A stretch of 64,000 bases of DNA from assembly GCF_000003815.2 (NCBI RefSeq), contig NC_049992.1, positions 3,519,703-3,583,702 on the forward strand, read 5' to 3'. The notes beneath the pieces were generated by a model, which saw only the letters and a program-made list of their open reading frames with translations, searched no databases and was not told the DNA's origin. This DNA comes from Branchiostoma floridae. Its lineage: Eukaryota; Chordata; Leptocardii; Amphioxiformes; Branchiostomatidae. Below are positions 29,001 to 47,881 of the stretch, in pieces. Position 1 is the stretch's first letter, and each line of letters opens with the position of its first letter. A program made the translations under genes and the position numbers.

Positions 29001-32000
29001 GGGACCGGAATTCATCCATCCTTAAGTCTGTAGAAATGTAGTTATGGAGATTCTTTTTTATCAAACATCTTTTGCATGTACAACGATGTAGTTTGCATCA
29101 AATTTGAACAGGAACGATTTTGTGTCTATAGTTCCAATTAGGTCAATATTTTACATATGGGGATGTATCATCAAGCAAACATTCCCATCAAAGATATCAT
29201 CATTGCATTCCAAATTTAGGAGCACATGCCTCAATGTTACATGCTGCATGCTGACAGAAATACTTGCTATGCTCATACAAAGCTCACCATTGCGCTTTGC
29301 ACAAAATAATTAGTCTGTGTAAGGCATACTCCACTGTCCAGGATCAGGAGGCCGGCGGATGTTGGGCGGGCTGCTATAAGCGAGATTTAATCAGGCTGAA
29401 AGAAATATGCTTCAGTTCAAGCGTTGTGCATTGCGTTATCAACAAGAGAATTCGCACATGATTATTCCCCAAATTGCCTCCAGGTTCGGCCAGGAGTCCT
29501 ACCCACCGGTTCCTCCCCCTCCACGTAACATCGAGGGCGATGTCCCCGCGCCGATCGCTCCCATCTCCCCGTGGGAAGCGGAGTGCCTGTACGGCGCGAC
29601 CCGGGACCTGACTACGCGGCAGTGCAAGTGTAATGAGGCCTGTACGTTCGAGTTCAACCCCGTTTGCGGATCGGACGGAAAGCAGTACAGCAACCCGTGC
29701 GCCCTCAAGGTGGAACAGTGCAAACAGCAGACGTCAATCGACAACGTTGGGCCTCCTCCATGCGGCGGTACGTGTTAGAGGTTTCCAGTCTCTGCCTTAT
29801 TGTTTGTTTGTTTGTTTGTTAATTCAAACAGGAGGATACATATTGCCTTCAATCGGCGATTTTCAATGTACCAGGGCTACATTCTAATGATATGTCTGCA
29901 ATTTTTTTTTATTTGACTTTTAGTGTCGTTACTGTGGCGAAGCTGGTAGGGCGGTAGGCTCGGTCTGAAAAAGTCCCATGCCCACGACGTCGTGTCATTG
30001 AGAAGGACTTTTAACACGTATTTTTTGCAGATGTGACGTACAGTGGATGCATGTAGTGATAACAACATTTTGACTGTAATGTGTCTCACCAGACTTCTAT
30101 TGATGTAACATACATTCATCTGATATCCCAATATCCGTACCACACAATTCTTTGACGGATGTCACATAGAGTGGTTATTTGTGCTGATTTATAAGTTTGA
30201 CTGCTGTTTTGCAGATGTGACGTACAGTGGATATCTGTACCTCCTGGAAATCACAGTCAGACCCACCAGTGAGACGCCTGTGGTCGAGTTCGGCCGGAAA
30301 ATACAGAAATCCTTCCAGTTCTCCCTACAGGATCCACGGGACACCATCTTATACATGCTGAAGGTAAGCAGGGAGTTGTATCATCTACGATATTTATATG
30401 TTTCACAAATGTACGTTACGTGACGAATGATAGAGACCGGCAGAACACAGTCTTCTGAAAGTCAGCCTTTCAGCCCTGTATATGGCATGTCACCATGGCT
30501 ATTAACTGTTTAGAGATTCGAGATTAGAATGAAATTAGCCCTCTTCTGGACAACTGATGGCACCTCTTATAATGCATGTAGTTATAATCTGACACAGCAC
30601 CAAAAGTGGGGTCGAAGGCGCCTAGGAGTGTGCTCCACTGGTATGAATTGAATGCATCTCATATAACGATTGCTTTCCGTGCTGTTGTCAATAATATTTC
30701 TTTTTAATCTTTATTCTCAAGGTTGTTGGAGAACCCAAGTACCTTCTATGTGAGTATCCTGCACTGGTTTAACTCCTGTTGCATCATTGTCTCATTTTAC
30801 ATCACTTCTGTTGGGAATAATCTGTGTCCGTCGGACTTTTAACATTGTTTTTTTTTTCATGGAATGGCAACTTCATCGTTTAATATGTTGCAACATCCCC
30901 TTCCTCTCTTGCAGACTTGAACGTGACCTTGCCGACTGACCTTGACCACCTGATCCATGACCTCTGGGTGAGTGACCCCGAGTACGTCATGAACATGACG
31001 ATCACGACCACGCCCCTGGTATATTACCCAGCATTCCTGCGGTCCACCTTGGAGATCACCGAAGAGGGAGTTCTGAACCAGTTCGGAGGTCAGGAGGAGA
31101 GAGAGTTGTATTACATGGACATCCACGCCAAGGACACAGGTAAGACAGTGGTCAAAGTCAGAAGTGATTTCACATCAATGTAACAATTACGTTTTATCTG
31201 GGTTTGTTTTCATTGTTTATGTATTATTCTGTTACTAAGTTGTAAGATAACTTTGCACAACAAGTGTACAGTGTATAAAGCATGGCACGTACTGGTACAT
31301 AACTACAGCTCCATATAAGGCTAATCTACATATTACAAAGACTAGATAATGGTATAAAAAGAAAATACATTTAAAAGAATGTCTAGACGTTAGACATTCC
31401 TCCCATGATTCACATCCCATATATTGAAAATACTGTGACTTACAACTTGCCTTAAGTTGAATTACTGTTTTTTCTTTCTTGCCCAGGTGTTAAGTTTGAG
31501 AAGGTTACTAACCAGCTGAAGAAGACAGCTGAAGTCATGGCAGAGACTCGGCAGAACCCCGAGCAGGCCAGTCTGATGCAGCCCTTCAAGGTTCTGGGTG
31601 CCCCAAGGGTGAGCGAATTTATGTCGTATTTCAGTAGCATCTACCTTAGCAACCACTGGATCTTATCGCTTGATAACCAAAGTGGCCATCACGGGAAAAG
31701 GTGCTTTCCAAGGCCACGAGACATCAAGAAAACAGTACAAAATAGAAAGCCCGATAAAGACGCCTAAAAAAACAGCCGGAGCCTAACCTTCGCTTGGATA
31801 ATAGCGAAAAGGTGAGCCAGGGGTTACTACAGAGGATGGTAACCAGGCTAATGTAATGCAACCATTGGTAATTCTCGGCTGCTCAATATGACTGTCAATG
31901 ATTTCATCAAGTCTTAGAGGGGTGGGATCCCATGCGTCTACAGAGTTCAAACCCTCTGGGATCTCTGTAATCTGTTGAATAATCGAAGTGCTACTTTTCC

Positions 32001-35000
32001 GACTCCTGTTTGATTTGTGAAAACGCTTTGTCGAAGGGACGAATCTTTTGATAAACCCTCGACTCAGCGATAACATCCACATTCTTTCACTTTGGATCAT
32101 ATTTTTTTCAGAATTTAGAAATTGCTAAAACCACGAAATGGAACTCTGGCAGTGGTCACTGCAATTTTAACATGTAGTTTGAAAGATGATACCTCTCTGC
32201 AATTGTATGTTGTGGCATCTTCATTTTAAGTTAAAAGCTACCCACATCCACGACATCGCCAAAGTATTTTTTAAACATCACTCTTTTTGTATCTGCCTGT
32301 TGAAGGTTGTGTCCGTGATGTCTTAAGCAGCACAGCGCCAAAGTATTTTTTAAACATCACTCTTGTTGTATTTGCCTGTTGAAGGTTATATCCGTGATGT
32401 CGGCACCAGTACATGAAGCAGCCGACAGGATGCTGCACGAGCTCCCACACATGCAGGAGTACGGTGACGCGATCGAGGTGGACGTCAGGAGTGTCATAAC
32501 GTTTGATCAGTACGACAGGCAAATCAAGTAGGTTTTAGATTTCTTTTAACCTCTCAGTTTTGTCTGCACCACATTGTGGTATCCATTGGTAACATAGTCA
32601 GTGAGATATCTCTAGTAGCGGGACAGATAAGCTGTCTCGTTGGTCGTTAGATGAGTCATCCTATTTCAGCAGTATGACAAGCAAGTCAAGTTTCGTTTTC
32701 TTAGTATCCTAAACTTAATTTAAACCACATTGGTACGTATATACTCTGATATCTAGCAGGACTTGCAAACTATTCAGCTGGCGGTTGTCAATTCCTATAC
32801 TCGAGCAGTGCGGCGGGGAAAACAAGTTGATTTTTGTTTCTCACTTTTTCTAGTCTTAAAAGAAAGTGCTTCCAGGTCAAAAGTTTGTTAAAGATAAGTG
32901 AAGTTCATTTCGATTTTACCTTTTAGAGTCGAAGAAAGTCACTTTTCTCTATTGTTAGCAAAAGTTAGCAAAATGACGAAATGAGCTCTTCTCTTAAGTT
33001 TTATAAATCAATCACCACAACATACATCGAGTTACTGATAACAAACATCTGTTTGCCCCACAGCTACCCCGATGCTGCCCCGGCCCTCCCCGCATTCCCC
33101 GGTGACGAACCCCTGTGCCAGTTCGGCGCGCGACGCGGCCCGACCGGCGGGGACTGCCGCTGCCAGGCCGGCTGCTCGCGCGAGTACGCACCGGTGTGCG
33201 GCTCGGACGGGCACGAGTACTCCAACGGCTGCCTGCTGAGGATGGAGGCCTGCAGGAAGGGCGTCGTCATCGACACCGTCGGCAAACCGCCATGCGGACG
33301 TAAGGACTGTAGCATAGCTTATATCTTTTATTTTTAAAAGCTTCATCGACACCCTGGGCAAACCACCATGTGGACGTAAGGATTGGATAAACCATTGTCC
33401 TTATTGTTATTGGGTGGGCTGACTTCTCATTTCAGCTGAAATACGTACCTGCAGCTATAATACTGTACTCCACTGGACAGAAGCCTTATGTTAGAGTAAA
33501 GCAAGAAGGGGGTCGTCACTGACAACATGGGCAAACTGCCCTGCGGACGTAAGGACTAGATAAACCATTGCCCCTGGTGTATCGTTATTGGGTGGGTGGA
33601 CTCTTCGCAACCAGGGGCTGAGGAGCTTGAGCTAATACAACATGCATACAATACTCCACTGAACAGAAGCCTAACATTAGGGTAAAGCAAGTATGGGGTC
33701 GTCATCGACAACATAGGCATGTCATCCTGTGGATCATATGAGGGCTGTTTTGAATTAATCAACAACATGACTAAGTCGGTAGGTATGATTTCTCTCCATT
33801 ACAGATTTGTCCACTAGTTGGCCATACATGAGCAGGTTCCTTTAAGTTGCCTTGCTCACAGTTCTTGAGCACAGTAACTTGGCTTTCTTCCTTTCCCGTG
33901 TTCAGCTGTTGCGTACAGCGGTTTCCTGTACCTGCTGGACATCCAAGTCACCCCGACCAGGAACCACTCCGTCGCCGACTTCGGACACCACATCAGGGAC
34001 GCCTTCCAGAACACGCTGCAAGATCGCCCGGGACAACCGGACCAGATCATCTACATGCTCAAGGTCAGTTCAGGGTTACTATAAGTAATATTCAAGACCA
34101 AGGAAAGTATACGGTAAAATCTTATTTATGTTCAGAGTCAATAAATGTTAAATCTACAACGTGAGTAAGGTGGGTACAAGTCAAATCACCTACATGCTGA
34201 AGGGCATTACAAGGTCAAACCATATCCACGGTAAATAATTTATATGTTCATGGTTACATCAGCTACACGGTCGAGGTTTGTGCTAGGTTGGTGTTAAATT
34301 GATTTTTTTAAAGATCAGATTTGTCACAGTGAATGAAGAAAGCCCATCAAAATGATATTGTAACTGCCTTTGTTTGTATTTTTGTAGGTGGATGGAGAAC
34401 CCTGGTATGTCGTCTGTAAGTACTCAAGACATTCAATTGTTCTACATCTTATAGAGAATGAGAGAATGGTTAATTTTGTAAACCATCTCAGCCTATACTG
34501 GGGCTGAATTGTTTGATACATGTACGGAGACCGGCTACTCAGAATTTAGTCATTGTTTCTCTGGCATGTGACTTTGGATGCATGTCGAAAAAGCCAAACT
34601 TCTGGTAAAGTTGCCTTTGAAATATTTTAATAGTAAATCACCCTTATCGCGAAGACCACATACATTATTTGCATGCTACAGAACTACAACGGCCACCTTT
34701 TTCTCAGGAGCCGAAGATTCTTAGTCAGCAGGGTCCATATCTGATGCGGTTACGGTCACATTTGTCCAGTCACGAAAAATGCAAATTAGCTCTTGCCAGA
34801 TTTGACGGATACGGCATGTTCTCATTTGCATTTTCGTGACGAGACAAACCCGACAGTAACCTTTGATGCCAGATGGTGAAACACAAAGGGTACAGGACGG
34901 ATTTGGAAAGTCAGCATTACAGTATTACTAATTATCTTTGTGTACGTAAACACACAAGCTGTGTTTCTGTGAATGATTTTAACTACGTGTTGTATCCCTG

Positions 35001-41000: not shown

Positions 41001-44000
41001 ATAATGTCTTGCCACATTCCTTTGTTTTCTGCAGACTTTCCTTCTCGTGTCGTGGCCGGGTAACGAGGCGGTAGATAGGAACCTGTACCAGCTGCCGATG
41101 ATCAGCGAGTTCGGAGACGCCGTCGAGGTCAAGGTCAAGAGCATCGTTCCTTTTGATGAATACGAGCGCCAACTGCTGTAAGTCACCGCTTCTTTCAAGA
41201 TGTAAATTTTTACTTTGAAAAAAAGAATCATTGTATTGTTTTCTTTCGAAATCAAATGATCACATACACAACAAGCATGGTCCAAAATATTATGATGAAG
41301 AAAGCAGATATAAGTTTTTATAACAAACCAATAGATACTGACTATCTGATGAACGTAATGATAACAGACTTCAATATGCAAAGAAATACATGTAGGACCA
41401 TTTCCAAAATCATGACCAGCTGCTATCTGCTTTTTGGCGTATCGTATTGCCTGGTTGCCTACCCTTCATCGACGTTTTAATGTTGTTTGTTCAGGAATGG
41501 CCTGCCCAGTCCAGTTCCTGGTATGGTAGTAAGGGACCGTGTTGCCACATCGTCCTGTCGCTATGGCGGCCTGATGGACCCTCTGACGGGCCGCTGCCGC
41601 TGTAACATCGTCTGCACCCGTGAGCGCATCCCCGTGTGCGGGTCCAACGGCAGGGAGTACCCCAACGCCTGCATGCTACGCGCTGACTCGTGCGAGCAAC
41701 AGCAGACCATCGACAAAGTCGGATCACCCCCTTGTGGACGTAGGTTGATTTCTCACTAGATGTTATAGGCTGTTTTGTTGTTATTTACCCCATTTACGTC
41801 CAAAAGATACGTGCAGCCCCAAACGAGCTACCCTTTTCAGGATTTGGACCTTGTTCTCCCAGTCACCAACAAGTCAACAAGACTGAACCAGGAGCTGATC
41901 TGTGAGGCTAGAAGCTGAGCCGCAGGCACATACATGTACATGCCCTTTTATATATTGCTGAATTATGTACACAATATCTGCTAGTCTTCCCCTAAGAAGT
42001 GCTCGAGGCCATTTTACGCCCAATAGATTCAGCCCCAACCGATATGCTCTTCAGAGGATTTGAATTGGGTCTACCAGTTACCAACTAACTTGAACCAGAG
42101 GCTCAACTGTGAGGCCACTACCAGTTGATGAGATACAGATACTTCCATATGGAAGCATAGCTAAATTATGTACCAAATATCGTCTCTCGTACAGCCGAGA
42201 ACAGCGTGATGTACAGCGGTTACCTGTACCAGCTGAACGTCACAGTCCAGGTCACGCCGAGCACGTCAGTCATGGAGTACGGCAAGCAGCTCCGCAGCTC
42301 CTTCAGCGACACCTTACAGGAGCCAGAGGAGGAAATCCTCTACATGCTGATGGTGAGAACAATAAGTGTACTCTTGAAGAGGTTCATCATTCAATTGAAT
42401 ACACTTTATAGAATATTCTTCAAACAGTGACATTTTGAAAGGCTTAAAACGCATAAACCTCCAAATCCTTTATGTCTGTTCAGTACATCTTGTTCGCGGG
42501 GTGACCTGGCCTTGTCTGTTTGTCTGTGCTTCACTACATCTGCGCTGCAGTTTTGTAATATTCTGCTGGGGGCATTTTATATAGTCACTACAATAAAGTT
42601 GGTAATACTTGTAGCGCTCGTCCAAATGCGTGATCGAGAGTTATATAATATTACTTAATATTTCCCTGCTAACTAGCTATATCCATATTTTAACTACAGG
42701 TCAACGGGGAACCCACGTTCCTGATATGTAAGTACAGTCTTTGTAGTGTTACAAACTTGATCTTCTCTTGCGCTTCAAAATAACATATTTATGCTTTAAG
42801 AGCGCCAGATTCTTTTGCAAAATGTGTGATTCCATGTTTGCCTATTATTTGTATTGAACAAAGGATCGTTAATCTTTCTTGCATTTTCAGTCGTGAACGT
42901 CTCCGTGCCAACGACCCTTGACCTGATGATGCACAACTACCTGATGACGTATCCTGAAGACGCAGAAACCGTAACCATGACAACCACGCCGCTTTCGTCC
43001 TATGAAGCGTTCCTGGCGACCACAGTCCTGGTGCAAGAGAAGAAAACGTTAAAACAGTTCGGCGGCATCCGAAGCGGAGACCTGTACCTTGTGGATATGC
43101 ACATCAGAGATACAAGTGAGCAGATAGTGTAATAGGCTAGTGTAATAATTTTGACAACTGTACTTACTTCTTTATTCAAGACGACTGCTGGCCACCTGTG
43201 CCAGGGCTTCCGCAGCAGTATATTCAAATAACTGGATACTACTGAAGGGAGTGAACTTTGTTTTCGGCAAGTCTGGGTGTTCGTCAATTTTTGTTGCTGC
43301 AGTGCAGTTCCTGTATGTTCTGCATGGACCATGGGAGATGGACCATGTCTGCAATGCCTGCCTTATTTTTACCTGAGTCTGTCTGTTTTGTTTTTATCAG
43401 AAAACTTTGCTTCTTTCCCTGCATATCGATGGTCGAACAACTGTCAAAGCGACATACTATGTCTCGTTCAAAATTTTTGGCTTTAATCACAGTTATAATT
43501 TGTACGTTTCCCCAGACCTGAACATGGACAGAATACACTCCGTCATCGCTGATGACGCCAAGGCACTGGCTTCCAACCGACCCTACCCAGAATCCTCCTC
43601 TCTCCTGCATCCCTTCAAGGTCGTGGGCAGTCTCAGGGTCAGTCGTACTTCCTAATAAAAAATGAATTTGCCAGCTTCGGCAACCTGGCTCTACTTTGTA
43701 ATGCAACATTTGATATTCGCAATATATGCAATTACAACCAAAGAACCGAACACTCTAAACTCATATCGGAATCGCCCAATGTAATGTATACATCTGCTGC
43801 CATGCAAACCTAAGTATCTAAAATAGGATTAATTAGGGGGAGTTACTCCCACAGTGAGTAAGCACTAGTCTAACCCATTTTGGCATGTCTGAGAACTGTT
43901 TATCTATAGTTTGGGTGGACTATTATCCAGGGTAAGTCCATATTCAGTCCTCCAATTTCCAGACAATTTCCAGACATATTGTCGGTGAAAAGAGGACTAA

Positions 44001-47000
44001 GGCCCGTGGTAAATCGTTCATAAGGTTACACATGCATGTGTATGTTTGCCAATATCACATATATACTTGTATGTATAAGGTGTTAAACTATGTTTCATGT
44101 TCTAGGATATGATCCTGATGTCAGCCCCCAGTAACGAGTTTATCGACACCCACCTGAACCGCCTGCCGCGCCTTAAACAGTTTGGGGACAGTCTTGAGGT
44201 CACCGTCAGGAGCGTGTCTCTGTTCGACGACATCGAGGAACAAATCATGTGCGTGTCTCAAAATTCGTTTTACGTCTAAGGCCCTTTTTTGATAATTTTC
44301 TCAACTGTGTATGTTGCGTTGCTGTCTTTGGCTTTCAGACTATTACAGATATTGATTATATTTTAGTAATATCAATGGGAATTTTGATTCTATATACATT
44401 ACACTGCTTTATTATAGGTGAAAGTTTATTGGACTATGGTATGCTGATTGTGCTCAAACCTACCAGTTTCTGACATAAATCTACAGATTCAACATGCCAC
44501 AAGAAGAGAAGAATTGTTGTTTACTGCTATATAGCGTATTTTGAATGAAATCAAATTCAAATTTTCAGTTTTCTCGGTAGCCTCGATTAGTAACAAAACA
44601 TTCCCTTTTCGTACTTGATTCATGGTAAGTTTACAAAACTCTACAATGGTAAAACAGTGTTAAAATAAATCATTTTGTTTCCTGAAATGTTCATTTTTTT
44701 ATGTTTGTTTCGTATTTGGTTTAAAGAAACATTTACAATTTACACAAATTAATAATTTCTGTCTCCCGGTCCAGAGAGAGAAACGGCGCGGCGGCCTCCA
44801 TCTCCGCCTCCACGGCGTACGGCGAGCACCAGGTGAGCGGGTACAACAACAACGGCGGCAGGTGCCGCTATGGCGGGACCAGAGACCGGTCCGGGCAGTG
44901 CAAGTGTAGCGAGGTCTGCATCGTGGACTCCGTGGCCGTGTGCGGCTCCGACGGGAAGGAGTACCCGAACCAGTGCGCGTTAGAAGTGCAGGCCTGCAAG
45001 CAGCAGAGGGCCATTGATGTCATCGGCAGCCCACCGTGTGGAGGTACAAATAGAGTCTTATCTCATATTAGTTAGTTTTGAATAAGTTATGACAAGATAG
45101 GCAGTAGAGACAACGATCCCAGCGCCACCACCGTCTGCCCAGTTTGCGTTAGAGGTGCAGGCCTGCAAGCTGCAGAAGGCCATTGATGTTCTTTTGCAGC
45201 CCGCCGTGTGGCGTGTGGAGGTATAATAATGAAGTCTATGGTCTTAAGCTTGGAAATTCTGCTACCTGGGAACAACCGTAACCATAAACCAGTGCAGTTT
45301 CTACCTGCTTTCCTCTGCCAGGACTCTGAGACGACATACAGTTGACCCTCTAAACATCATCACCAAAACCCAGGGAGAGCCATGCGAGTTTATATCCTGT
45401 ACATAACCTTAAAAAACGTAGGGTTTCCAGCGAGGGATTATCAATTGAATCTTGAAAAGTGACCGGGAAAGCATTTGATGTAGGGCTTAATTACTTTATT
45501 TTGTTTTTCCCACCCCAGATATCCAGTACAGCGGGTTCCTCTACCTACTAGAGATCTCAGTCGTCCCCACTGCTGAGTATGACGAAGGCGTGGTTCATAT
45601 CGGACAGACTCTGCAGTACTCCTTCTCAGAGACACTCAAAAACCCACGGGACTCTGTCATACACATGCTCAAGGTACAGAACTCCTACTCTTAGAGACAC
45701 TCAAAATTCTGCCATATGCATGCTCAAGGCGATAGTGTTCGCTGCAATAATTCTGTTTCAAAGTCATATGTTGTAGAATCTGCTTTTTCTTTGTATAAGG
45801 TAGGTCTGGAGAAGCTTGTTATTTTTCTGGCCATGTCCGTTAGTGATATTAACTGTGCTGTAGCAGTGGTGGAAAAGCATGCCAAGTAGATACATGTATA
45901 CGTTTCAGTTACATTTATCCAGTTACAGATGATAAATCCGATATCAGATAATAAACGCGGCATTCTAAAATATATTATCTTTCTTTCACAGGTGGATGCT
46001 GAACCAAAATACCTTATATGTGAGTTTATATTCTAATGCCTAATTAATCAAATGCACACATTGTTGCACATTTTACAGATGTAAATGTGTCTTTCCTACT
46101 TATGATTTTGATATTTAGTGATGTAACTAAGTGATTGCTACTGTATATATTTGAGCATTTATTAACCAGAAAAGTGCAATTGCTCTGTGCGTTTAACAGT
46201 TATGAGGTAAAAAGTTTAGAAAAATCGGTAAATGTAACGTATGATTTCTAATGATTTTCTTGCTATATTCCAGTTTTTCAATATGACGTACTGACGATTA
46301 TGATCTTACAAATTTCTCCCCTAGACGTGAACGTCTCCTCACCTCTGGTCAGCACACTGATGTACAACTAATGGCGGACGAAAAATACAAAAAGAAATTA
46401 TTCTGTGCGTTTTACAATTTATGAGGTATAGGCTTTAGAAAAATCGGCAAATGTCATGTACTTTTGCTACTTGAATATAACGATTATGATTTGACAAATT
46501 TCCCCCAGACGTGAACGTCTCCTCACCCGACATGGTGAGCACACTGTTGTACAACTACTGGCGGACGCAGCCCGAGCTGGCTGCCCGCCTGACGGTCCAC
46601 ACCACCCCGCTAGCGCACTACCACGCCTTCCTGGCCACCACGGGAGGTGTGGACGACATGGACGTGTTGAAGACGTTTGGAGGGAAACAGAGCGAATGGA
46701 TGTTCCACATAGACATCCATGCCAAAGACTCAGGTGGGGAAATGTTACCAAAGATGTAGACAAAATTTGAATCTGTGTTGGCTTTGCTATGTATTTTCCT
46801 TCACATTGTTTTCAGTTATTCCCACATATGAATGAACTTTATTGTACAAGAACCGTACAGGATATGATATATGGCAAAAAAACTACAAAATAGCAACAAT
46901 TGCCATTAGAAACTAATCAATATATGGCATACTACGGTCTAGGAGAAAACAATTAATAGTCTATATGTGGATAAAGTATTGGACATAATTTAAAAGAAGT

Positions 47001-47881
47001 TGGTGTTCTGGTGTCCAAGTGCGTTGAAGCTTTTATAGATGCAATGTATACATCGCACTGTTATGGCTTGTCCAACATACTGATGATGTTTGTTTATTTG
47101 TTTGTTTGTTGTGATCCAGGAGTGCCGATGAAGGAGCTAGTGTCAAAGTGGGTAGAAGACGCAGAGTTCCTTGCGGAAACCCGAGACCCGTCCACAGCTG
47201 ACTACTTCCAGCCCTTCAAGGTCGTAGGAAGCACACGAGTGAGTGGACTTGAACTTGACACTTTGTCTCTCACTGTCCATATACATTGTATTATATACAG
47301 ACTCACACATACAAAACTCAACTGAGCCTAGAACTGCCCTTCGCTTCCTGATGTGCAAAACGGGTGTCTTACGCTCTTGGGCAGTTAAAAGGTTATGAAA
47401 AGGGAAAAAAACAGAATGTCTGGAAAGAAAACAATTGCTGTTTACCATTTCATTTGTATACTTGTTATAACTTAAGCTTTGTCATGCGAATGTGTAATAT
47501 TCAATTACGGACTTACTGTATATGCTGTGATTAAAGATACCACAGTGTTAGACGGACGAAAGATAGCGGATGTTATCTGAAACGTCTATTACATTTTCCA
47601 AAATCATATCCAGTTGATTTAGTAACTGCTTTTTGCTTTTTGGTGTGTCTTATTACCTGTATGTCTAACCTTCATCAACGTTTACAGAATCATAGAATAA
47701 CGCTTTTCTTCACGTTTCCCTGCAGATGGTTGTTCTGTTTTCCTCCGAGCGAAACGAGGCCGTAGATCGGTTCCTGTACCAACTCCCACTGATGCAACCT
47801 TACGGTGACGCCATCGAGGTCAAAGTTCACAGCGTGGCCACATTCACAGAGTATGAAAAACAGCTGCTCATACAGTACTAG
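248..47881 (+). CDS. Giant multidomain secreted protein, 3' part of gene (84 exons seen): pentraxin, thyroglobulin-1, VWC, Kazal and module X
   Basis: I do not recognise this as a named gene. Eighty-four exons chain in one frame from a partial codon at the left to a TAG stop; the summed length (11660 bases) fits the phase exactly, giving 3885 residues in the window. Domain order is PTX, PTX, PPG-rich linker, PTX, two thyroglobulin-1, VWC, Kazal, two six-Cys modules, Kazal, four six-Cys modules, Kazal, RRPTTDD linker, three Kazal, PTX, Kazal, GCW-type domain, Kazal, then X-Kazal-X-Kazal-X-Kazal-X-Kazal-X. There is no transmembrane segment in the visible part, and disulfide-rich domains with N-glycosylation sites point to secretion. 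Most domain borders are phase 1 introns, as expected from exon shuffling. The likely job, by inference, is a pattern-recognition or matrix protein carrying many protease-inhibitor heads. A gene predictor may split this locus; I saw no internal stop, promoter or polyadenylation site that would justify a split. Both assembly gaps fall in introns. Confidence 0.8.
1040..1300 (-). mobile_element. tRNA-derived SINE, copy 1
   Basis: On the - strand a tRNA-like head has the box-A-like TGGTGCAATGGTCGAGTGG and the B box GAGTTCGATCC, ends in ATACCAAAGA, and leads into a body shared with the copies at 36060 and 63485 (ACACATCACTACTAGTGGAC, CCCTGCTGTAGTG, CACAAATGTGTG). It lies in the intron before exon 3. 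Confidence 0.7.
2350..2455. mobile_element. Short element with TCTCCAAGCAGAT inverted ends
   Basis: CTAATCTCCAAGCAGATGT returns as AGATTTGCTTGGAGATGAC about 90 bases later. The same ends occur on the 173-base palindromic element at 48607 and alone near 51533 and 56728. Confidence 0.55.
2496..2660. mobile_element. MITE with GTCACATTTCCAAA..CCCGGCCGGG ends, copy 1
   Basis: Inverted ends of about 28 bases: CGACATTTGCAAACCGAGGC then CCGGCC, and the reverse CCGACCGGACCCCAG, TTTGGAAACGTGAC. It has no coding capacity. Confidence 0.6.
3192..5775 (+). CDS. Linker exon plus pentraxin-type domain 2 (exons 6-10)
   Basis: Exons are 3192-3233 (a 42-base linker, SSRPDVLPESPSG), 3513-3621, 4176-4368, 4899-5090 and 5613-5775. 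Domain layout and intron positions repeat domain 1 exactly, and exons 8 and 9 are close to identical in DNA to exons 3 and 4, while the introns around them differ. Signatures are EVNRLRFQDPPSTENYAVL, SYATPEEDNEIQFYG, WHNVMITWDG, GSWILGQEQD, GGGFEDFQAYVGDL and FHIWDKVLSQEE. The domain disulfide cysteines are absent here too. It looks like a recent tandem copy of domain 1 or a pair kept alike by gene conversion. Confidence 0.8.
6342..6647 (+). CDS. Pro/Gly-rich repeat linker, YPPGGV repeats (exon 11)
   Basis: A single 306-base exon between pentraxin domains 2 and 3 encodes about fifteen imperfect five- or six-residue repeats of the type YPPGGV, with variants RPPGER, YPPGEL, YPPGEY and TKPPG. 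In DNA this is a minisatellite of 18-base units. The pattern is not the Gly-X-Y of collagen, since glycines come at five- or six-residue intervals; it resembles flexible or elastomeric PPG linkers. Phase 1 at both ends keeps the frame whether it is included or skipped. Copy number is likely to be polymorphic. No function can be read beyond a spacer between pentraxin heads. Confidence 0.75.
7286..9404 (+). CDS. Pentraxin-type domain 3 (exons 12-15)
   Basis: Exons are 7286-7400, 7745-7886, 8408-8599 and 9239-9404. The domain runs GSYRLQFPEPVSTDNYAEI, FTIVFHIR, GTVFSYATEDEVNEVQFYG, WHIVVLTWDG, GTWILGQEQD, GGGFEEEQAFVGDL and FNVWHTLPTPEQ. It shares the intron positions of domains 1 and 2 but lacks their 17-residue insert, and again has no intradomain cysteine pair. 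The intron after exon 14 carries decayed copies of the 3' end of that exon. The intron after exon 15 holds the first assembly gap. Confidence 0.8.
7985..8045. repeat. (AT)n microsatellite
   Basis: About 28 AT units in a row lie in the intron between exons 13 and 14 of the giant gene. Confidence 0.95.
8777..9070 (+). repeat. Two decayed copies of the 3' end of exon 14 with donor
   Basis: AGCAGGACGTGGTCGGAGCA, GAGGAGGAACATGTGGG and AATTATAGTTC repeat the end of exon 14 (QEQDTVGGGFEEEQ), its donor and the next intron bases, about 200 bases downstream. A weaker third unit ends near 9066. The bases between (GTCTACTGTTGTTCT, TTGGAGGCTTACAG) also repeat. Confidence 0.7.
9441..9660. mobile_element. 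MITE with GTCACATTTCCAAA..CCCGGCCGGG ends, copy 2, with gap
   Basis: The left end TCACATTTCCAAACCCGGGC and the right end CCCGGCCGGGTCCCTG, TTTTGAAATGTGAC flank the first assembly gap. The inner sequence CTTGTGTAGTTTGGTGT is shared with copy 3. Confidence 0.75.
9479..9578. other. Assembly gap, 100 N
   Basis: A run of exactly 100 unknown bases lies inside an intron and within a transposon-like element whose two ends flank it. The true missing length is not known. No coding exon seems to be lost, because the phases of the exons on either side agree and the pentraxin domain is complete before it. Confidence 0.95.
9833..11163 (+). CDS. Two thyroglobulin type-1 domains (exons 16-18)
   Basis: Exons are 9833-10072, 10522-10717 and 11069-11163. 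The first domain runs from TACEKEVAEA through GTYRTTQCHGSTGYCYCAHP to QEDC, with the six cysteines of the family and CYC in place of the common CWC. The second runs from TECQRDLAKEY through GTYKTSQCYGFTHFCYCIHP to RFDC, its last cysteine being supplied by exon 18. Such domains are found in thyropins, nidogen, testican and SMOC proteins, and several inhibit cysteine or aspartic proteases. Exon 18 continues into an acidic and Pro-rich spacer. Inhibitory activity is not shown by the sequence. Confidence 0.85.
11694..12417 (+). CDS. Pro/Ala-rich spacer and VWC domain (exons 19-20)
   Basis: Exons are 11694-11810 and 12247-12417. The first is a Pro/Ala-rich spacer ending in EFCISDNG, where the VWC domain begins. 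The second gives DRYRVGESWSMDKSNCTQC, MCEQFG, and closes with GECCPGCPG, the CCxxC ending typical of von Willebrand factor type C domains. VWC domains mediate assembly or bind growth factors of the TGF-beta group in chordin-like proteins. This is the only full-length VWC domain I see in the gene; shorter six-Cys relatives follow. Confidence 0.8.
12793..12878 (+). pseudogene. Decayed copy of the 5' end of Kazal-1 exon
   Basis: About 150 bases before the real exon, the acceptor (GATACAG) and the first 80 or so bases of the Kazal-1 exon are repeated at high identity (EPEVTDRCTMPGEV, then NPETRQCECLSAV) and then run into TGA in frame. It has an acceptor but no donor and no second half of the domain. 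It is a partial exon duplication and not a working exon. Confidence 0.75.
12945..13172 (+). CDS. Kazal domain 1 (exon 21)
   Basis: The exon encodes a follistatin/agrin-type Kazal unit: EETDRCSMPGEV, ECECLSICPAIYFPVCGSDG, REYASECEL, ACREQRDIKV and DGPCE. The residue two after the cysteine before the PVCG loop, which is the P1 site in inhibitory Kazal domains, is alanine, which would suit elastase-like enzymes if the domain inhibits at all. It is longer than the later Kazal units by a few residues before the last cysteine. Confidence 0.85.
13437..14798 (+). CDS. Linker and six-cysteine VWC/pacifastin-like modules 1-2 (exons 22-26)
   Basis: Exons are 13437-13496 (linker), 13658-13751 with 14120-14172 (module 1) and 14528-14600 with 14752-14798 (module 2). 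Module 2 reads DKCYHPILGDKFKEGEK, DCNEC, VCSESGQWQCTNHPC. The spacing C, C-x-x-C, x-C, then G-x-x-x-C-x-x-x-C matches both the pacifastin inhibitor family (CNxCxC..G..CT..C) and a short VWC half. Each module is cut by a phase 2 intron inside the CxxC pair, which is what confirms the exon pairing. Pacifastins inhibit serine proteases in arthropods; whether these do is unknown. Confidence 0.7.
14969..15169 (+). CDS. Kazal domain 2 (exon 27)
   Basis: The exon reads PNGDCQFGAKYNV, VCECKSDCSGTVSPVCGSDG, LEYASDCLMELRSC and ending YPPCAG. It is a complete agrin-type Kazal unit. The predicted P1 residue is glycine, which is unusual for an active inhibitor, so a structural role is possible. It sits between two pairs of six-Cys modules. 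Its first codon is split with a C from the preceding exon, not the G seen at most borders. Confidence 0.85.
15564..17134 (+). CDS. Pro/Ala-rich linker and six-cysteine modules 3-4 (exons 28-32)
   Basis: Exons are 15564-15665 (linker with GRTAGRPEAAPAVSFAAPRP), 15878-15956 with 16342-16394 (module 3: EDVCIVDGSIVKVHQFY, DECNMC, TCAEGGESLCTRMACPP) and 16788-16863 with 17061-17134 (module 4: RHCYSPQNGRPYKPGSK, EKCTEC, TCSGSDYKWRCRQL). Both modules are again split by a phase 2 intron in the CxxC pair. Module 4 has two extra residues around its fifth cysteine and an extra cysteine-containing tail (TPECQEPE). Confidence 0.7.
17555..19113 (+). CDS. Pro-rich linker and six-cysteine modules 5-6 (exons 33-37)
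   Basis: Exons are 17555-17650 (linker AAPPRPRPGPYPEIAICPPG), 17989-18076 with 18329-18381 (module 5: LQICVNPMTGSEVKVGE, DGCNEC, LCLPNNGLACTRKFCPK) and 18623-18695 with 19046-19113 (module 6: DKCYHPTTGEEYDVGQ, DCNTC, VCGGLGSWGCTLMFCPSDD). Modules 2 and 6 are the closest pair (both open DKCYHP). The intron inside module 5 has a perfect palindrome. The pair is followed by Kazal domain 3. Confidence 0.7.
18235..18269. repeat. Perfect 16-base inverted repeat with 3-base loop
   Basis: AGCAAACTAGGTTACT, loop GTA, then its exact reverse complement. It lies in the short intron that splits six-cysteine module 5, about 60 bases before the acceptor. In the transcript it would form a strong hairpin. Confidence 0.9.
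19488..20019 (+). CDS. Kazal domain 3, split over two exons (exons 38-39)
   Basis: Exons are 19488-19618 and 19953-20019. The first holds EECRFGATLDEELNQCVC, RACPFLYSPVCGEDGNTYDN and RCLLE; the second holds IAMCEKQTEIRVEFEGRCE. The intron is phase 0 and cuts after the conserved RCLLE helix start, a position not used by the other Kazal units. The predicted P1 residue is phenylalanine, which suits chymotrypsin-like enzymes. Confidence 0.85.
20291..20539 (+). CDS. Charged repeat linker, five RRPTTDD repeats (exon 40)
   Basis: This 249-base exon opens with an acidic Gly-rich stretch, then has five perfect or near-perfect seven-residue repeats of the type RRPTTDD (21-base units), then RPRPPAITRPGETPETGEE. 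The many Thr and Pro residues make it a good candidate for O-glycosylated, extended spacer. Phase 1 at both ends. Repeat number is likely to vary between alleles. Confidence 0.75.
20853..21400 (+). repeat. Four decayed tandem copies of the 5' end of the Kazal-4 exon
   Basis: Before the real exon at 21424 there are four copies of its acceptor and first 70-80 bases, beginning at 20853, 21007, 21163 and 21296 (spacing 128-156). Each starts after a TTTAG or TTCAG acceptor with the AATCTTGCAGTTTTGGAGCG-like opening. They are broken: the copy at 21007 has TAG, that at 21296 has TAA, that at 21163 has lost one T and is frameshifted, and that at 20853 is the most diverged. None has the second half of the exon or a donor. 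Confidence 0.85.
21424..21618 (+). CDS. Kazal domain 4 (exon 41)
   Basis: The exon reads ESCSFGATYDAESGQCYC, IQCTYESEPVCGTDGRQYPN, RCLLKLVACQNQEDIEV and PPPCGED. It is a complete agrin-type Kazal unit with tyrosine as the predicted P1 residue. It is the functional member of a five-copy series in which the four copies upstream are broken fragments. Confidence 0.9.
21909..22272 (+). CDS. 30-base linker exon and Kazal domain 5 (exons 42-43)
   Basis: Exons are 21909-21938 (only 30 bases, DDYVEPEVVG) and 22126-22272. The Kazal exon reads DECPTSCAQQPIDNICGSDG, REYGNLCSLRAAACKEGKN and GPGPCRG. It is a short Kazal unit lacking the N-terminal CxFGA half that the others carry. The predicted P1 residue is glutamine. 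Just after the donor there is a 22-base degraded copy of the exon end. Confidence 0.8.
22280..22305 (+). repeat. Short decayed copy of the 3' end of the Kazal-5 exon
   Basis: ACTGGACCTGGGTCCTGCA repeats the exon end (ACCGGACCTGGGCCCTGCAG) just 20 bases after the donor. Confidence 0.6.
22987..23414 (+). CDS. Kazal domain 6, split over two exons (exons 44-45)
   Basis: Exons are 22987-23089 and 23335-23414, joined in phase 2. They read RACPYIRCFFLYDPVCGSDG, KEYFNRCVMRKSACVQQRD and TPPCNGG. Like Kazal 5 it lacks the FGA half. The predicted P1 residue is phenylalanine. The phase 2 split inside FNR-C differs from the phase 0 splits in Kazal 3 and Kazal 10. Confidence 0.8.
23600..23702. mobile_element. 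Hairpin element in the intron before pentraxin 4
   Basis: TAGTATGAAAGCTGCCAAAG with GGCCGGC is mirrored by GCTGGCCGGC and CTTGGCTAGCTTTGATACTA. It resembles other small palindromic elements in the window. Confidence 0.55.
23782..25684 (+). CDS. Pentraxin-type domain 4 (exons 46-48)
   Basis: Exons are 23782-24032, 24686-24810 and 25455-25684. The order is GPYRLTFSSELSVDNYAEI, FTVAFHLRTDTPYSGTIF, EEEDNEIQFYGEAGNRGFKF, WHVVMVTWRSRRGDWKIYVDG, GVWILGQEQDSVGYDFEVFQ, AYGGDLASFNVWNYVLSSEE. It is most like domain 3 in lacking the insert, but its introns differ: the first two exons of domains 1-3 are fused into one, the intron before QAYVG is missing, and a new one follows HTIR. The usual glycine run GGGF is replaced by GYDF. 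Two cysteines (SSCSF and DCG) appear after the jelly roll. Confidence 0.8.
24172..24216 (+). repeat. Copy of the 3' end of exon 46
   Basis: CAACGACCAGACCGACTTCA and TCGATCTCGAGGTCGGTTG repeat the exon end (NNDQTDFIDLE) and donor about 160 bases downstream, still with a GAG-GT border. No acceptor belongs to it. Confidence 0.75.
26227..26430 (+). CDS. Kazal domain 7 (exon 49)
   Basis: The exon reads GRCRYGAVFVEATGECQC, QACPYNYNPVCGSDGRQYPN, ECAMRVAGCNSQQDVYS and RPPCDGG. Complete agrin-type Kazal unit with tyrosine as the predicted P1. The last 75 bases with the donor and some intron are repeated, degraded, about 150 bases downstream. Confidence 0.9.
26575..26690 (+). repeat. Decayed copy of the 3' end of the Kazal-7 exon with its donor
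   Basis: The stretch repeats the sequence for AGCNSQQDVYS and RPPC, the GACAG-GTGGGG donor and the following intron bases up to CTTTGTGAGTT. Between the two lies an AT-rich run of AATGATAAT-like triplets. It lacks an acceptor and so is not an exon. Confidence 0.8.
27265..28937 (+). CDS. GCW-type domain flanked by Pro/Gly/Tyr mini-exons (exons 50-53)
   Basis: Exons are 27265-27309, 27687-27992, 28334-28372 and 28841-28937. The 306-base exon holds one domain: RYTSLGCWKHRADTALEDLE, LDGDYKDRINAVEKCYQVA, RGFQVFALQGDGHCYGSANG, YNKYGPSIACAADGRGGV, NEVYRI. I know this GCWxDxxxRA..VFAxQxxGxC..NxVY pattern as a small four-cysteine domain common in secreted proteins of marine invertebrates, with no firmly known role. 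The mini-exons on either side are alike (GRPSSYYPG before, VRPGSYYPG and RPVYPGQ after), so a phase 1 domain seems to have been dropped into a repeat linker. Confidence 0.75.
27549..27633. repeat. Tandem repeat, 27-29 base units, nearly three copies
   Basis: ATGGACCAGGACGGAAGAGA with GAGACGC recurs with few changes just before the GCW-domain exon. Confidence 0.8.
28587..28785. mobile_element. MITE with GTCACATTTCCAAA..CCCGGCCGGG ends, copy 3, complete
   Basis: The 199-base copy has both ends (GTCACATTTCCAAATCGGGG, CCCGGCCGGG; CCCGGTCGGGACTCGG, TTTGAAGATGTGAC), and AT-rich middle sequence. It lies in the intron before exon 53. A half copy is at about 37431-37510. Confidence 0.75.
29484..29767 (+). 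CDS. Pro-rich spacer and Kazal domain 8 (exon 54)
   Basis: The exon starts with a spacer (YPPVPPPPRN) and then a Kazal unit: AECLYGATRDLTTRQCKC, EACTFEFNPVCGSDGKQYSN, PCALKVEQCKQQTSIDNV and PPPCGG. The predicted P1 is phenylalanine. It opens the C-terminal half of the protein, in which Kazal domains alternate strictly with the X modules. Confidence 0.9.
30031..30049 (+). repeat. Short decayed copy of the 5' end of the first X-module exon
   Basis: The acceptor TTTTTTGCAG and the next 19 bases (ATGTGACGTACAGTGGAT and one more) repeat the start of the exon at 30215. After that the match ends at GCATGTAG. A second, weaker trace lies near 30155. Confidence 0.6.
30215..32527 (+). CDS. Module X1, uncharacterised cysteine-free domain (exons 55-59)
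   Basis: Exons are 30215-30363, 30722-30749 (a 28-base microexon), 30915-31139, 31487-31608 and 32385-32527; about 222 residues. Key stretches are TYSGYLYLLEITV, LQDPRDTILYMLK, VVGEPKYLL, LNVTLPTDLDHLIHDLW, TTTPLVYYPAFL, ELYYMDIHAKDTG, LMQPFKVLGAPR, and MQEYGDAIEVDVRSV. There is no cysteine. NVT is a glycosylation site found at the same place in all five copies. The second half (from ELYYMDIH) repeats the layout of the first (from SGYLYLLEI). Predicted by eye, each half is strand-helix-strand-strand-helix-strand. I do not recognise the family. Confidence 0.75.
32261..32339 (+). repeat. 79-base tandem copy of an exon-59 acceptor region
   Basis: The stretch from AAAGTATTTTTTAAACATCA through the acceptor TGTTGAAG and the first 15 or so bases of the exon is present twice in a row, the second copy leading into the real exon at 32385. 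The first copy ends in TCTTAAGC after VSVMS, which stops the frame. Confidence 0.85.
32661..32697 (+). repeat. Decayed copy of the 3' end of exon 59
   Basis: CAGTATGACAAGCAAGTCAAG repeats the exon end (CAGTACGACAGGCAAATCAA and donor) about 140 bases downstream, with several changes. The donor is lost. Confidence 0.55.
33064..33299 (+). CDS. Kazal domain 9 (exon 60)
   Basis: The exon opens with a Pro/Ala-rich spacer, then PLCQFGARRGPTGGDCRC, AGCSREYAPVCGSDGHEYSN, GCLLRMEACRKGVVID and KPPCG. The predicted P1 is arginine, so it should suit trypsin-like enzymes better than its neighbours. The exon is strikingly GC-rich. It ends with a split C and not the usual G, which changes the first residue of module X2 to proline. 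Confidence 0.9.
33341..33740 (+). repeat. Three decayed copies of the 3' end of the Kazal-9 exon with donor
   Basis: Copies of the sequence for VIDTVGKPPCG, the GTAAGGA donor and the next 50 or so intron bases (TAAACCATTG..TTATTGGGTGGG) begin near 33341, 33508 and 33688, about 165-180 apart. Decay rises with distance; the last has lost the donor. Confidence 0.8.
33906..36684 (+). CDS. Module X2, uncharacterised cysteine-free domain (exons 61-65)
   Basis: Exons are 33906-34063, 34388-34415 (28 bases), 35007-35234, 35756-35880 and 36542-36684; about 227 residues. Key stretches are AYSGFLYLLDIQV, PDQIIYMLK, VDGEPWYVV, VNVTSPSVIDLLLHNYW, YPGDADYVTIQSTPLAHYEA, SGELYMLDLHVKDSG, FMHPFKVVGSTR, VIILSS, and YGDAIEVDAISVVPFSEYE. 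This copy shows the two-half structure most clearly: SGFLYLLDIQV against SGELYMLDLHV, MLK-VDGEP against STR-VIIL at the same phase 0 intron, and DADYVTIQSTPLAHYEAF against DAIEVDAISVVPFSEYE. Confidence 0.75.
34735..34868. mobile_element. Hairpin element, about 45-base inverted arms
   Basis: The arm GGTTAC.GTC..TTTGTC..GTCACGAAAA.TGCAAAT.AG is followed some 40 bases later by its reverse complement with few changes. The ends sit in the intron before exon 63. It has no coding capacity and looks like a small non-autonomous DNA transposon. Confidence 0.65.
35441..35693. mobile_element. Small inverted-repeat element with ~48-base arms
   Basis: Arms at 35441-35487 and 35646-35693 are reverse complements with two or three differences; they contain ATCATCAGGGTAGAATGACT. 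A related single arm is found near 5910-5975 in another intron. No open frame inside. This fits a non-autonomous transposon. Confidence 0.75.
36060..36270 (-). mobile_element. Degraded tRNA-derived SINE, copy 2
   Basis: The stretch shares with the copies at 1040 and 63485 the body GTTCACACCTTTTGTGCAATCACT-like segment, the CTTTGGTATGACTCG junction and traces of the tRNA-like head. It lies in an intron of module X2 and is the most degraded of the three. Confidence 0.55.
36768..36797 (+). repeat. Decayed copy of the 3' end of exon 65 with donor
   Basis: GAATACGAACAAGAGATACAG followed by TAAAG repeats the exon end and its donor (GAGTACGAGCATGAGATAGA, GTAAGG) about 100 bases downstream. Confidence 0.6.
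37045..37727 (+). CDS. Kazal domain 10, split over two exons (exons 66-67)
   Basis: Exons are 37045-37201 and 37610-37727, joined in phase 0. They read TSICRYGGVRNPLTGKCFC, ADICSQ then DVDPVCGSDGVEYDNLCQ, LKVAACRQQKTIDALG and PPCGG. The intron falls exactly at the predicted P1 site (CSQ), so any alternative exon here would change inhibitor specificity. As read, P1 is glutamine. Confidence 0.85.
37811..37880. repeat. Short tandem repeat, four units of 18-19 bases
   Basis: Units of the type TCATCATTGGTTGAGC, with single changes, stand in a row just after exon 67. There is no coding meaning that I can see. Confidence 0.75.
38593..41177 (+). CDS. Module X3, uncharacterised cysteine-free domain (exons 68-72)
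   Basis: Exons are 38593-38741, 39076-39103 (28 bases), 39380-39613, 40495-40616 and 41035-41177; about 225 residues. Key stretches are MYSGFLYRLEVTV, LRDPMDQMLYMMK, VNGEQVFHV, LNVSLPTVLDQLTANF, YPGDAEQVTFVPTTLVDYR, DGELYFVDIYPRD, FMMPYKVLGSTR, and FGDAVEVKVKSIVPFDEYE. The third exon is nine bases longer than in other copies (PRDTYEQG). The second assembly gap lies in the intron before exon 71. Confidence 0.75.
39761..40033. mobile_element. Inverted repeat of about 50 bases flanking the second gap
   Basis: The arm 39761-39810 (GATGAAGGTTCAAAC..TTCTTCTGGATAATATC..) is the reverse complement of 39984-40033 with very few changes. A 100-base gap lies between. The hairpin probably caused the sequencing or assembly break. 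Confidence 0.7.
39811..39910. other. Assembly gap, 100 N
   Basis: A run of exactly 100 unknown bases inside an intron and between the arms of a long inverted repeat. The exon chain is not broken by it. Confidence 0.95.
41495..41739 (+). CDS. Kazal domain 11 (exon 73)
   Basis: The exon reads TSSCRYGGLMDPLTGRCRC, IVCTRERIPVCGSNGREYPN, ACMLRADSCEQQQTIDKVG and PPCG. The predicted P1 is arginine, as in Kazal 9, which would suit trypsin-like enzymes. The usual GSDG is GSNG here. It ends with a split C, so module X4 begins with proline like X2. Confidence 0.9.
42195..44248 (+). CDS. Module X4, uncharacterised cysteine-free domain (exons 74-78)
   Basis: Exons are 42195-42352, 42700-42727 (28 bases), 42891-43115, 43516-43637 and 44106-44248; about 225 residues. 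Key stretches are MYSGYLYQLNVTVQV, LQEPEEEILYMLM, VNGEPTFLI, VNVSVPTTLDLMMHNYL, YPEDAETVTMTTTPLSSYEA, SGDLYLVDMHIRDT, LLHPFKVVGSLR, and FGDSLEVTVRSVSLFDDIE. It has an additional NVT glycosylation site in the first exon. X2 and X4 share the longer 158-base first exon, and X1 and X3 the 149-base form. Confidence 0.75.
44775..45043 (+). CDS. Spacer and Kazal domain 12 (exon 79)
   Basis: An Ala/Ser-rich spacer is followed by GRCRYGGTRDRSGQCKC, EVCIVDSVAVCGSDGKEYPN, QCALEVQACKQQRAIDV and SPPCGG. The predicted P1 is valine, which would suit elastase-like enzymes. It is the last Kazal unit of the protein. Confidence 0.9.
45145..45222 (+). repeat. Decayed copy of the 3' end of the Kazal-12 exon
   Basis: TTTGCGTTAGAGGTGCAGGC and what follows repeat the end of the exon (ALEVQACKQQRAIDV..PPCG) and the GGAGGTA donor about 150 bases downstream, with small deletions. 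Confidence 0.75.
45519..47881 (+). CDS. Module X5 and C-terminus of the giant protein (exons 80-84)
   Basis: Exons are 45519-45673, 45992-46019 (28 bases), 46509-46733, 47120-47238 and 47726-47881; about 227 residues to the stop TAG. Key stretches are QYSGFLYLLEISV, NPRDSVIHMLK, VDAEPKYLI, VNVSSPDMVSTLLYNYW, TVHTTPLAHYHAFLATT, FHIDIHAKDSG, YFQPFKVVGSTR, and YGDAIEVKVHSVATFTEYE. The protein ends KQLLIQY directly after the module, so there is no C-terminal anchor. Copies of exon borders flank exons 80 and 82. Confidence 0.8.
45688..45730 (+). repeat. Decayed copy of the 3' end of exon 80
   Basis: GAGACACTCAAAATTCTGCC and ATGCATGCTCAAGG repeat the exon end (ETLKNPRDSVIHMLK) just after the real donor, with a short internal deletion. 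Confidence 0.7.
46325..46380 (+). repeat. Decayed copy of the 5' end of exon 82
   Basis: An acceptor (CCCCTAG) and about 55 bases repeat the start of the real exon at 46509 (VNVSSPLVSTLMYN) and then have TAA in place of the tyrosine codon. The copy also repeats about 130 bases of intron behind it (ACAATTTATGAGGTA, GAAAAATCGG). Confidence 0.8.

Follow-up and report, generated by a model that had tools for sequence, protein, structure and literature searches.

Across positions 30215-47881 of the window (the whole stretch of 64,000 nucleotides analysed here), five copies of a cysteine-free module, X, alternate with Kazal domains, and comparison of their sequences indicates that each copy is very probably a tandem fused pair of ferredoxin-like units related by ancestry to muconolactone delta-isomerase (MIase, PF02426). 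Profile comparison shows MIase ancestry for the C-terminal half of the module (C-half), and the same ancestry is well supported for the N-terminal half (N-half). The original prediction had described X as belonging to no recognised family and had named a profile match to a named family as the finding that would count against this; when that search was run it returned a significant match to MIase, strong in the C-half and weaker in the N-half, so that the claim is mostly refuted. It holds at curated thresholds, where none of the five copies lies above the Pfam cut-off and NCBIfam likewise gives no match. X is best regarded as a divergent homologue, probably one without catalytic activity, and not as a true MIase, because it stays below the Pfam cut-off, matches classic MIases weakly and has lost Glu27. 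That leaves an unusual way of reusing the fold of a known enzyme family.

Rebuilt from the raw DNA, the five X copies and five Kazal domains (K1-K5) form one joined open stretch of 31 exons and 1,563 residues, which begins at the K1 exon, inside the gene, and has a single stop at 47881 directly after X5. Each X module lies on the + strand in five exons, which are bounded by AG at the acceptor and GT at the donor, except that the last exon of X5 terminates in the stop codon. All five Kazal domains show the usual cysteine core when read from sequence, and all five pass the Pfam cut-off (PF00050/PF07648), K3 through its second exon only, as its first exon has no Pfam Kazal match. P1 was predicted by taking the residue two places beyond the cysteine that precedes the PVCGSD-type motif. 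The features are as follows.

K1: 29484..29767, + strand; Kazal_2, E 5.1e-11; predicted P1 Phe.
X1, 222 aa: 30215-30363, 30722-30749, 30915-31139, 31487-31608, 32385-32527, + strand; from AG/GT borders, phases and reading frame.
X1 N-half (exons 1 and 2 with the beginning of exon 3, up to an approximate boundary): 30215..31068, + strand; putative first MIase-like ferredoxin-like unit.
X1 C-half (remainder of exon 3 with exons 4 and 5): 31069..32527, + strand; putative second MIase-like ferredoxin-like unit.
K2: 33064..33299, + strand; Kazal_1, E 4.9e-9; predicted P1 Arg.
X2, 227 aa: 33906-34063, 34388-34415, 35007-35234, 35756-35880, 36542-36684, + strand; from borders and frame.
K3, two exons: 37045-37201, 37610-37727, + strand; Kazal_2, E 1.9e-10 on the second exon; predicted P1 Gln.
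X3, 225 aa: 38593-38741, 39076-39103, 39380-39613, 40495-40616, 41035-41177, + strand; from borders and frame.
K4: 41495..41739, + strand; Kazal_2, E 3.4e-10; predicted P1 Arg.
X4, 225 aa: 42195-42352, 42700-42727, 42891-43115, 43516-43637, 44106-44248, + strand; from borders and frame.
K5: 44775..45043, + strand; Kazal_2, E 5.6e-9; predicted P1 Val.
X5 with stop codon, 227 aa: 45519-45673, 45992-46019, 46509-46733, 47120-47238, 47726-47881, + strand; from borders and frame.

These lengths agree with the predicted range of 222-227 residues, and the exon sizes agree almost completely: from X1 to X5, exon 1 has 149, 158, 149, 158 and 155 bases, exon 2 has 28 bases throughout, exon 3 has 225, 228, 234, 225 and 225 bases, and exon 4 has 122, 125, 122, 122 and 119 bases, all as expected, while the 143 bases given for exon 5 apply to four of the five copies, the X5 exon having 156 including the stop. 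Two of the 28-base exons, 39076-39103 (X3) and 45992-46019 (X5), were missed by a strict search for VxGEP and were located through the exon constraints. Pairwise identity among the copies is 41-48%, and since the same exon layout recurs in all five, chance is excluded. Introns following X1-X4 (5' of K2-K5) are in phase 2 and those separating Kazal from X in phase 1; Kazal plus X is therefore an exon-symmetric unit for which tandem duplication is possible. Intron positions read from the exon map are unlike between the N-half and the C-half. A search with X5 of the 513,431,437-base genome to which the window belongs, run exon by exon so that very divergent copies would escape it, gave 16 matches, all of them within the window at 30214-47878.

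Conserved strings had been listed as signatures shared by the copies, and this is exact for YSGxLYxL and NV[ST]xP, which occur in all five; the others are consensus forms that some copies match inexactly. VxGEP and TTPLxxYxAF are exact in three copies, PFKVVGSTR and YGDAIEVxVxSV in two and ILYMLK in one, and the literal form of GELYxxDIHxKD occurs in none. Two further occurrences of NV[ST]xP lie at 28584 and, within an intronic copy, at 46330. The absence of cysteine was confirmed in every copy, and the joined stretch consequently has its 41 cysteines in the Kazal segments and linkers. This absence had been called odd; it is now expected, because X resembles a bacterial cytoplasmic enzyme fold.

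MIase (PF02426) was the only family listed for four of the five X copies in Pfam (limit E 10), always in the C-half: X1 at E 0.00085, X2 at E 0.027, X4 at E 0.0053 (residues 127-202) and X5 at E 0.0031. All of these fall below the cut-off, the best score being 19.9 bits against a curated value of 26.7. X3 had no Pfam MIase match at E 10 and DUF6022 alone was listed for it. SEA, NTR, cystatin, FAS1, Ig and Kazal were unlisted for all five copies at the same limit, as had been predicted, although the HMMER filters discard most matches above about 0.1, so that very weak ones are possibly hidden. An SEA-like reading, prompted by the YSGxLYxL start, found no Pfam support. Among other candidates, DUF6022 for X3 (E 0.061) and DsbD for X1 (E 0.11) were set aside as weak and isolated, and so, from the solved structures, were Elongator subunit 5 (E 0.22 and 0.37) and, at E 1.7, a tRNA-associated protein. 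MIase was not found among solved structures at E 10 in a profile search with the whole of X.

For comparison of profiles, MIase proteins were collected from bacterial genomes (29 of 299 match PF02426 at E 0.001), and the resulting 12-member set comprises 11 classic MIases and the divergent L102. The five-copy C-half profile aligned to this set with an hhalign score of 37.1 over 80 columns (E 3.5e-6) and the N-half profile with 28.4 over 86 columns (E 1.7e-4), while the two halves aligned directly with each other at 26.3 over 87 columns (E 6.1e-4); these E-values hold for one comparison, not for a database. In each case none of 200 column shuffles reached the observed score (maxima C 19.6, N 22.8, N versus C 26.1). 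Omitting X5 lowered the N-half score against the 12 MIases to 18.1. With the 11 classic MIases alone the scores were 21.8 for the N-half and 21.0 for the C-half, about the best-shuffle level obtained with the 12-member set, and the signal stems mainly from divergent members of the family. The known proteins closest to X are three divergent bacterial members of the MIase family, P0001 (Cylindrospermopsis, WP_096545470.1), L102 and P0002 (Rhodococcus, WP_138872126.1), all of which exceed the Pfam cut-off of 26.7, the three scores being 62.5, 55.4 and 41.9 bits. Against these three the C-half scored 75.5 (97.9%, E 3.3e-13, 92 columns) and the N-half 38.6 (88.1%, E 3e-6, 50 columns); none of 200 shuffles reached either score (maxima 24.8 and 19.5), and dropping any one X copy left scores of 70.9-75.6 for the C-half and 35.2-40.0 for the N-half. 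In blastp searches four of the five C-halves (X1, X2, X3 and X5) matched the bacterial set with E-values of 1e-7 or better; the X4 C-half has no match at E 0.01, though it aligns in the profile. The C-halves of the same four copies are collinear with the three bacterial members and 24-29% identical to them over 92-101 residues, and K-V-x-G, L-P and S-V/L-x-x-Y/F motifs, together with a tail past the last strand, are common to the X C-halves and the MIase family.

YCII, ABM and Dabb belong to the same superfamily as MIase, and ribosomal S6 has the same fold. Decoy profiles of these four families, built from 19, 18, 20 and 18 of 20 loci each, scored 8.3-13.6 against the X halves, compared with 28.4 and 37.1 for MIase, and were rejected as alternative families at these background scores. 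The control is limited because the MIase set also fails to detect YCII, ABM and Dabb, whose profiles thus match neither X nor MIase in the same test.

X5 had a single tblastn match at E up to 1 in 7.3 Gb of plasmids (72,556 records), at E 1e-4, to a cyanobacterial protein annotated as 'muconolactone Delta-isomerase family protein'. X1 matched the same protein at E 0.09 and a hypothetical protein at E 3, and X3, the third of the copies searched, had no plasmid match at E 10. The Pfam MIase model found no match in the genome of the window at E 0.001; with the domain divided among exons, the model overlooks even X, and a further exon-split MIase may exist elsewhere in the genome. The cyanobacterial protein had two weak matches in this genome, of which that at E 0.042 is X1 exon 5. 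The better one (E 0.018) lies on another contig (C7:13257820-13257939, 48% over 41 residues, one internal stop) and may reflect either another MIase-like gene, decayed or split, or chance. Relatives of L102 were found at E 0.001 in 7 of 299 genomes, namely its own and six with weak matches (E 1e-5 to 8e-4), all six already positive for PF02426. At E 1e-6 it was found in its own genome alone among 195 of its order, with no relative in the other 194 sampled, and the L102 branch therefore looks rare there. The L102 MIase-family gene (L213, 8320-8643, - strand) adjoins a reading frame that appears glyoxalase/VOC-like by eye.

How far this ancestry extends over the module is where the readings part. 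It is improbable that only the C-half is MIase-like, with the N-half an unrelated domain, or an unrelated ferredoxin-like one, and X without internal duplication. Several observations favour such a reading: the margin of the direct comparison of the two halves is thin, because the best of the 200 shuffles fell short of the observed value by no more than 0.2; leaving out X1 or X5 lowers the observed value to 18.5 or 17.9, respectively; the N-half score with classic MIases, 21.8, lies under the best shuffle; the model of exon 1 lacks proper strands; and intron positions differ from those of the C-half. Against it, the N-half matches the three bacterial proteins independently and well above the shuffle maximum (38.6 versus 19.5), and this match survives the omission of any copy. 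In addition, the N-half aligned to a profile of the C-halves plus the bacterial proteins at E 1.2e-7 (94.2%, 93 columns), a profile that partly consists of the same protein's own C-halves and for which no shuffles were run, and all N-half alignments share one register. A wholly new domain of unrelated ancestry, resembling MIase by chance, is very improbable: it would agree with the lack of anything above curated cut-offs in Pfam and NCBIfam and with classic MIases alone equalling good shuffles, but not with a 97.9% profile match over 92 columns that 0 of 200 shuffles equalled, with decoys that stay at background, or with a single copy, X5, yielding a plasmid match significant at the scale of the search.

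The remaining alternative overlaps the ancestry claim and differs in function, namely that X is a working secreted MIase-type enzyme acting on a lactone or related small molecule. Homology to an enzyme family and the many invariant core positions kept in five copies speak for this reading, which we nevertheless regard as improbable. Glu27 of MIases is catalytic, and this residue (1MLI numbering) is invariant in the 12-member set; its equivalents in the five X C-halves are Thr, Gln, Asp, Asp and Asp, and the position is non-acidic in the N-half, with an alignment uncertain by one place. No statement of MIase catalytic residues was met in the active-site literature, including the available portion of PMC4835899. 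An N-glycosylation sequon (NVT or NVS) lies within NV[ST]xP as one conserved site in all five copies. Loss of the invariant Glu and retention of the sequon, both read from the sequence, make X most likely a non-catalytic, glycosylated extracellular module.

Under the preferred reading of two fused MIase-like units, each unit would have the order beta-alpha-beta-beta-alpha-beta plus a short trailing helix. Models were folded from single-exon alignments, and both are partial and weakly confident. That of exon 3 (mean pLDDT 70.9) has helices at 8-19 and 21-24, a strand at 27-36, helices at 37-45 and 50-55 and a strand at 63-71, an order that agrees with the expected end of unit 1 followed by the first strand of unit 2; that of exon 1 (pLDDT 69.7) has a helix and no proper strands. 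MIase has one domain per chain and forms a homodecamer, and duplication and fusion act in the alpha+beta barrel superfamily as a route to two ferredoxin-like units per polypeptide, according to PMC4835899. From this role of duplication and fusion, together with the homology, we infer that the two units of X probably close onto each other to form a single-chain alpha+beta barrel, where bacterial MIases build barrels by pairing separate chains. Unlike the one-domain MIases, X has two units in each module, with five modules to the chain, and it also differs in being predicted to be secreted with Kazal domains, in carrying a sequon in each copy, in having lost the Glu and in falling below the Pfam cut-off. 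The proteins treated in PMC4835899 are like X in carrying two homologous ferredoxin-like units on one polypeptide and unlike it in being heme-binding enzymes of the superfamily.

With regard to function, our leading proposal, to which we give slightly less than even weight, is that the X barrels serve as rigid, glycosylated spacers between the Kazal domains of a multi-headed serine-protease inhibitor, possibly with a pocket for a small ligand. A fuller history, speculative and on balance unlikely, would have a bacterial-type MIase-like domain captured by an animal lineage (perhaps through gene transfer), duplicated, fused into a single-chain barrel, made secretory and multiplied with Kazal domains, so founding an extracellular module that binds ligands, is restricted to one lineage and has no counterpart described so far. 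The source of the domain may equally have been ancient descent. Most extracellular modules of animals either are held by disulfide bonds or have folds that have long been known. Multi-Kazal secreted protease inhibitors and follistatin/agrin-type proteins provide the comparison class, and in them, as in the present protein, Kazal domains that carry the usual cysteine core are repeated; we know of no multi-Kazal protein with an intervening MIase-like module. Literature searches found no combination of Kazal with muconolactone, no muconolactone isomerase domain and no lancelet muconolactone domain, and an earlier mention of this gene in papers on amphioxus Kazal proteins is possible. If the proposed ancestry is correct, X, cysteine-free and present five times in a protease-inhibitor mosaic, would clearly exemplify how animals can turn the fold of an enzyme to structural or binding use, and it would supply a profile for a stretch that is blank in Pfam.

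Several intronic sequences in the window repeat exon borders. The X1 exon 1 border (acceptor plus exon start) is repeated perfectly over 26 bases at 30023-30048, and a looser further copy of acceptor and exon start lies at 30151-30182; a 79-base tandem repeat crosses the X1 exon 5 border at 32253-32401, and at 46308-46380 the start of X5 exon 3 recurs in degenerate form and contains an in-frame stop. PMC3087553 describes such intronic copies in amphioxus genes under the name of mirages, and the acceptor plus exon-start copies seen here resemble them. These copies and the mosaic architecture of the protein fit a lancelet. Copies of Kazal ends (e.g. DTLGKPPCGRKD) also occur in introns just downstream of K2 (33318-33422) and K5 (45101-45226) and are duplicated exon borders.

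Further secreted-protein domains lie upstream on the + strand at 2103-28081, where 20 chosen frames were scanned, and they may be in the same gene as the Kazal-X stretch. They comprise pentaxin at 2103 and 25408, thyroglobulin type 1 at 9784 and 10341, VWC at 12186 and six more Kazal domains at 12914, 14887, 19454, 21351, 22059 and 26163, together with a WSC-like stretch, below cut-off, at 27608.
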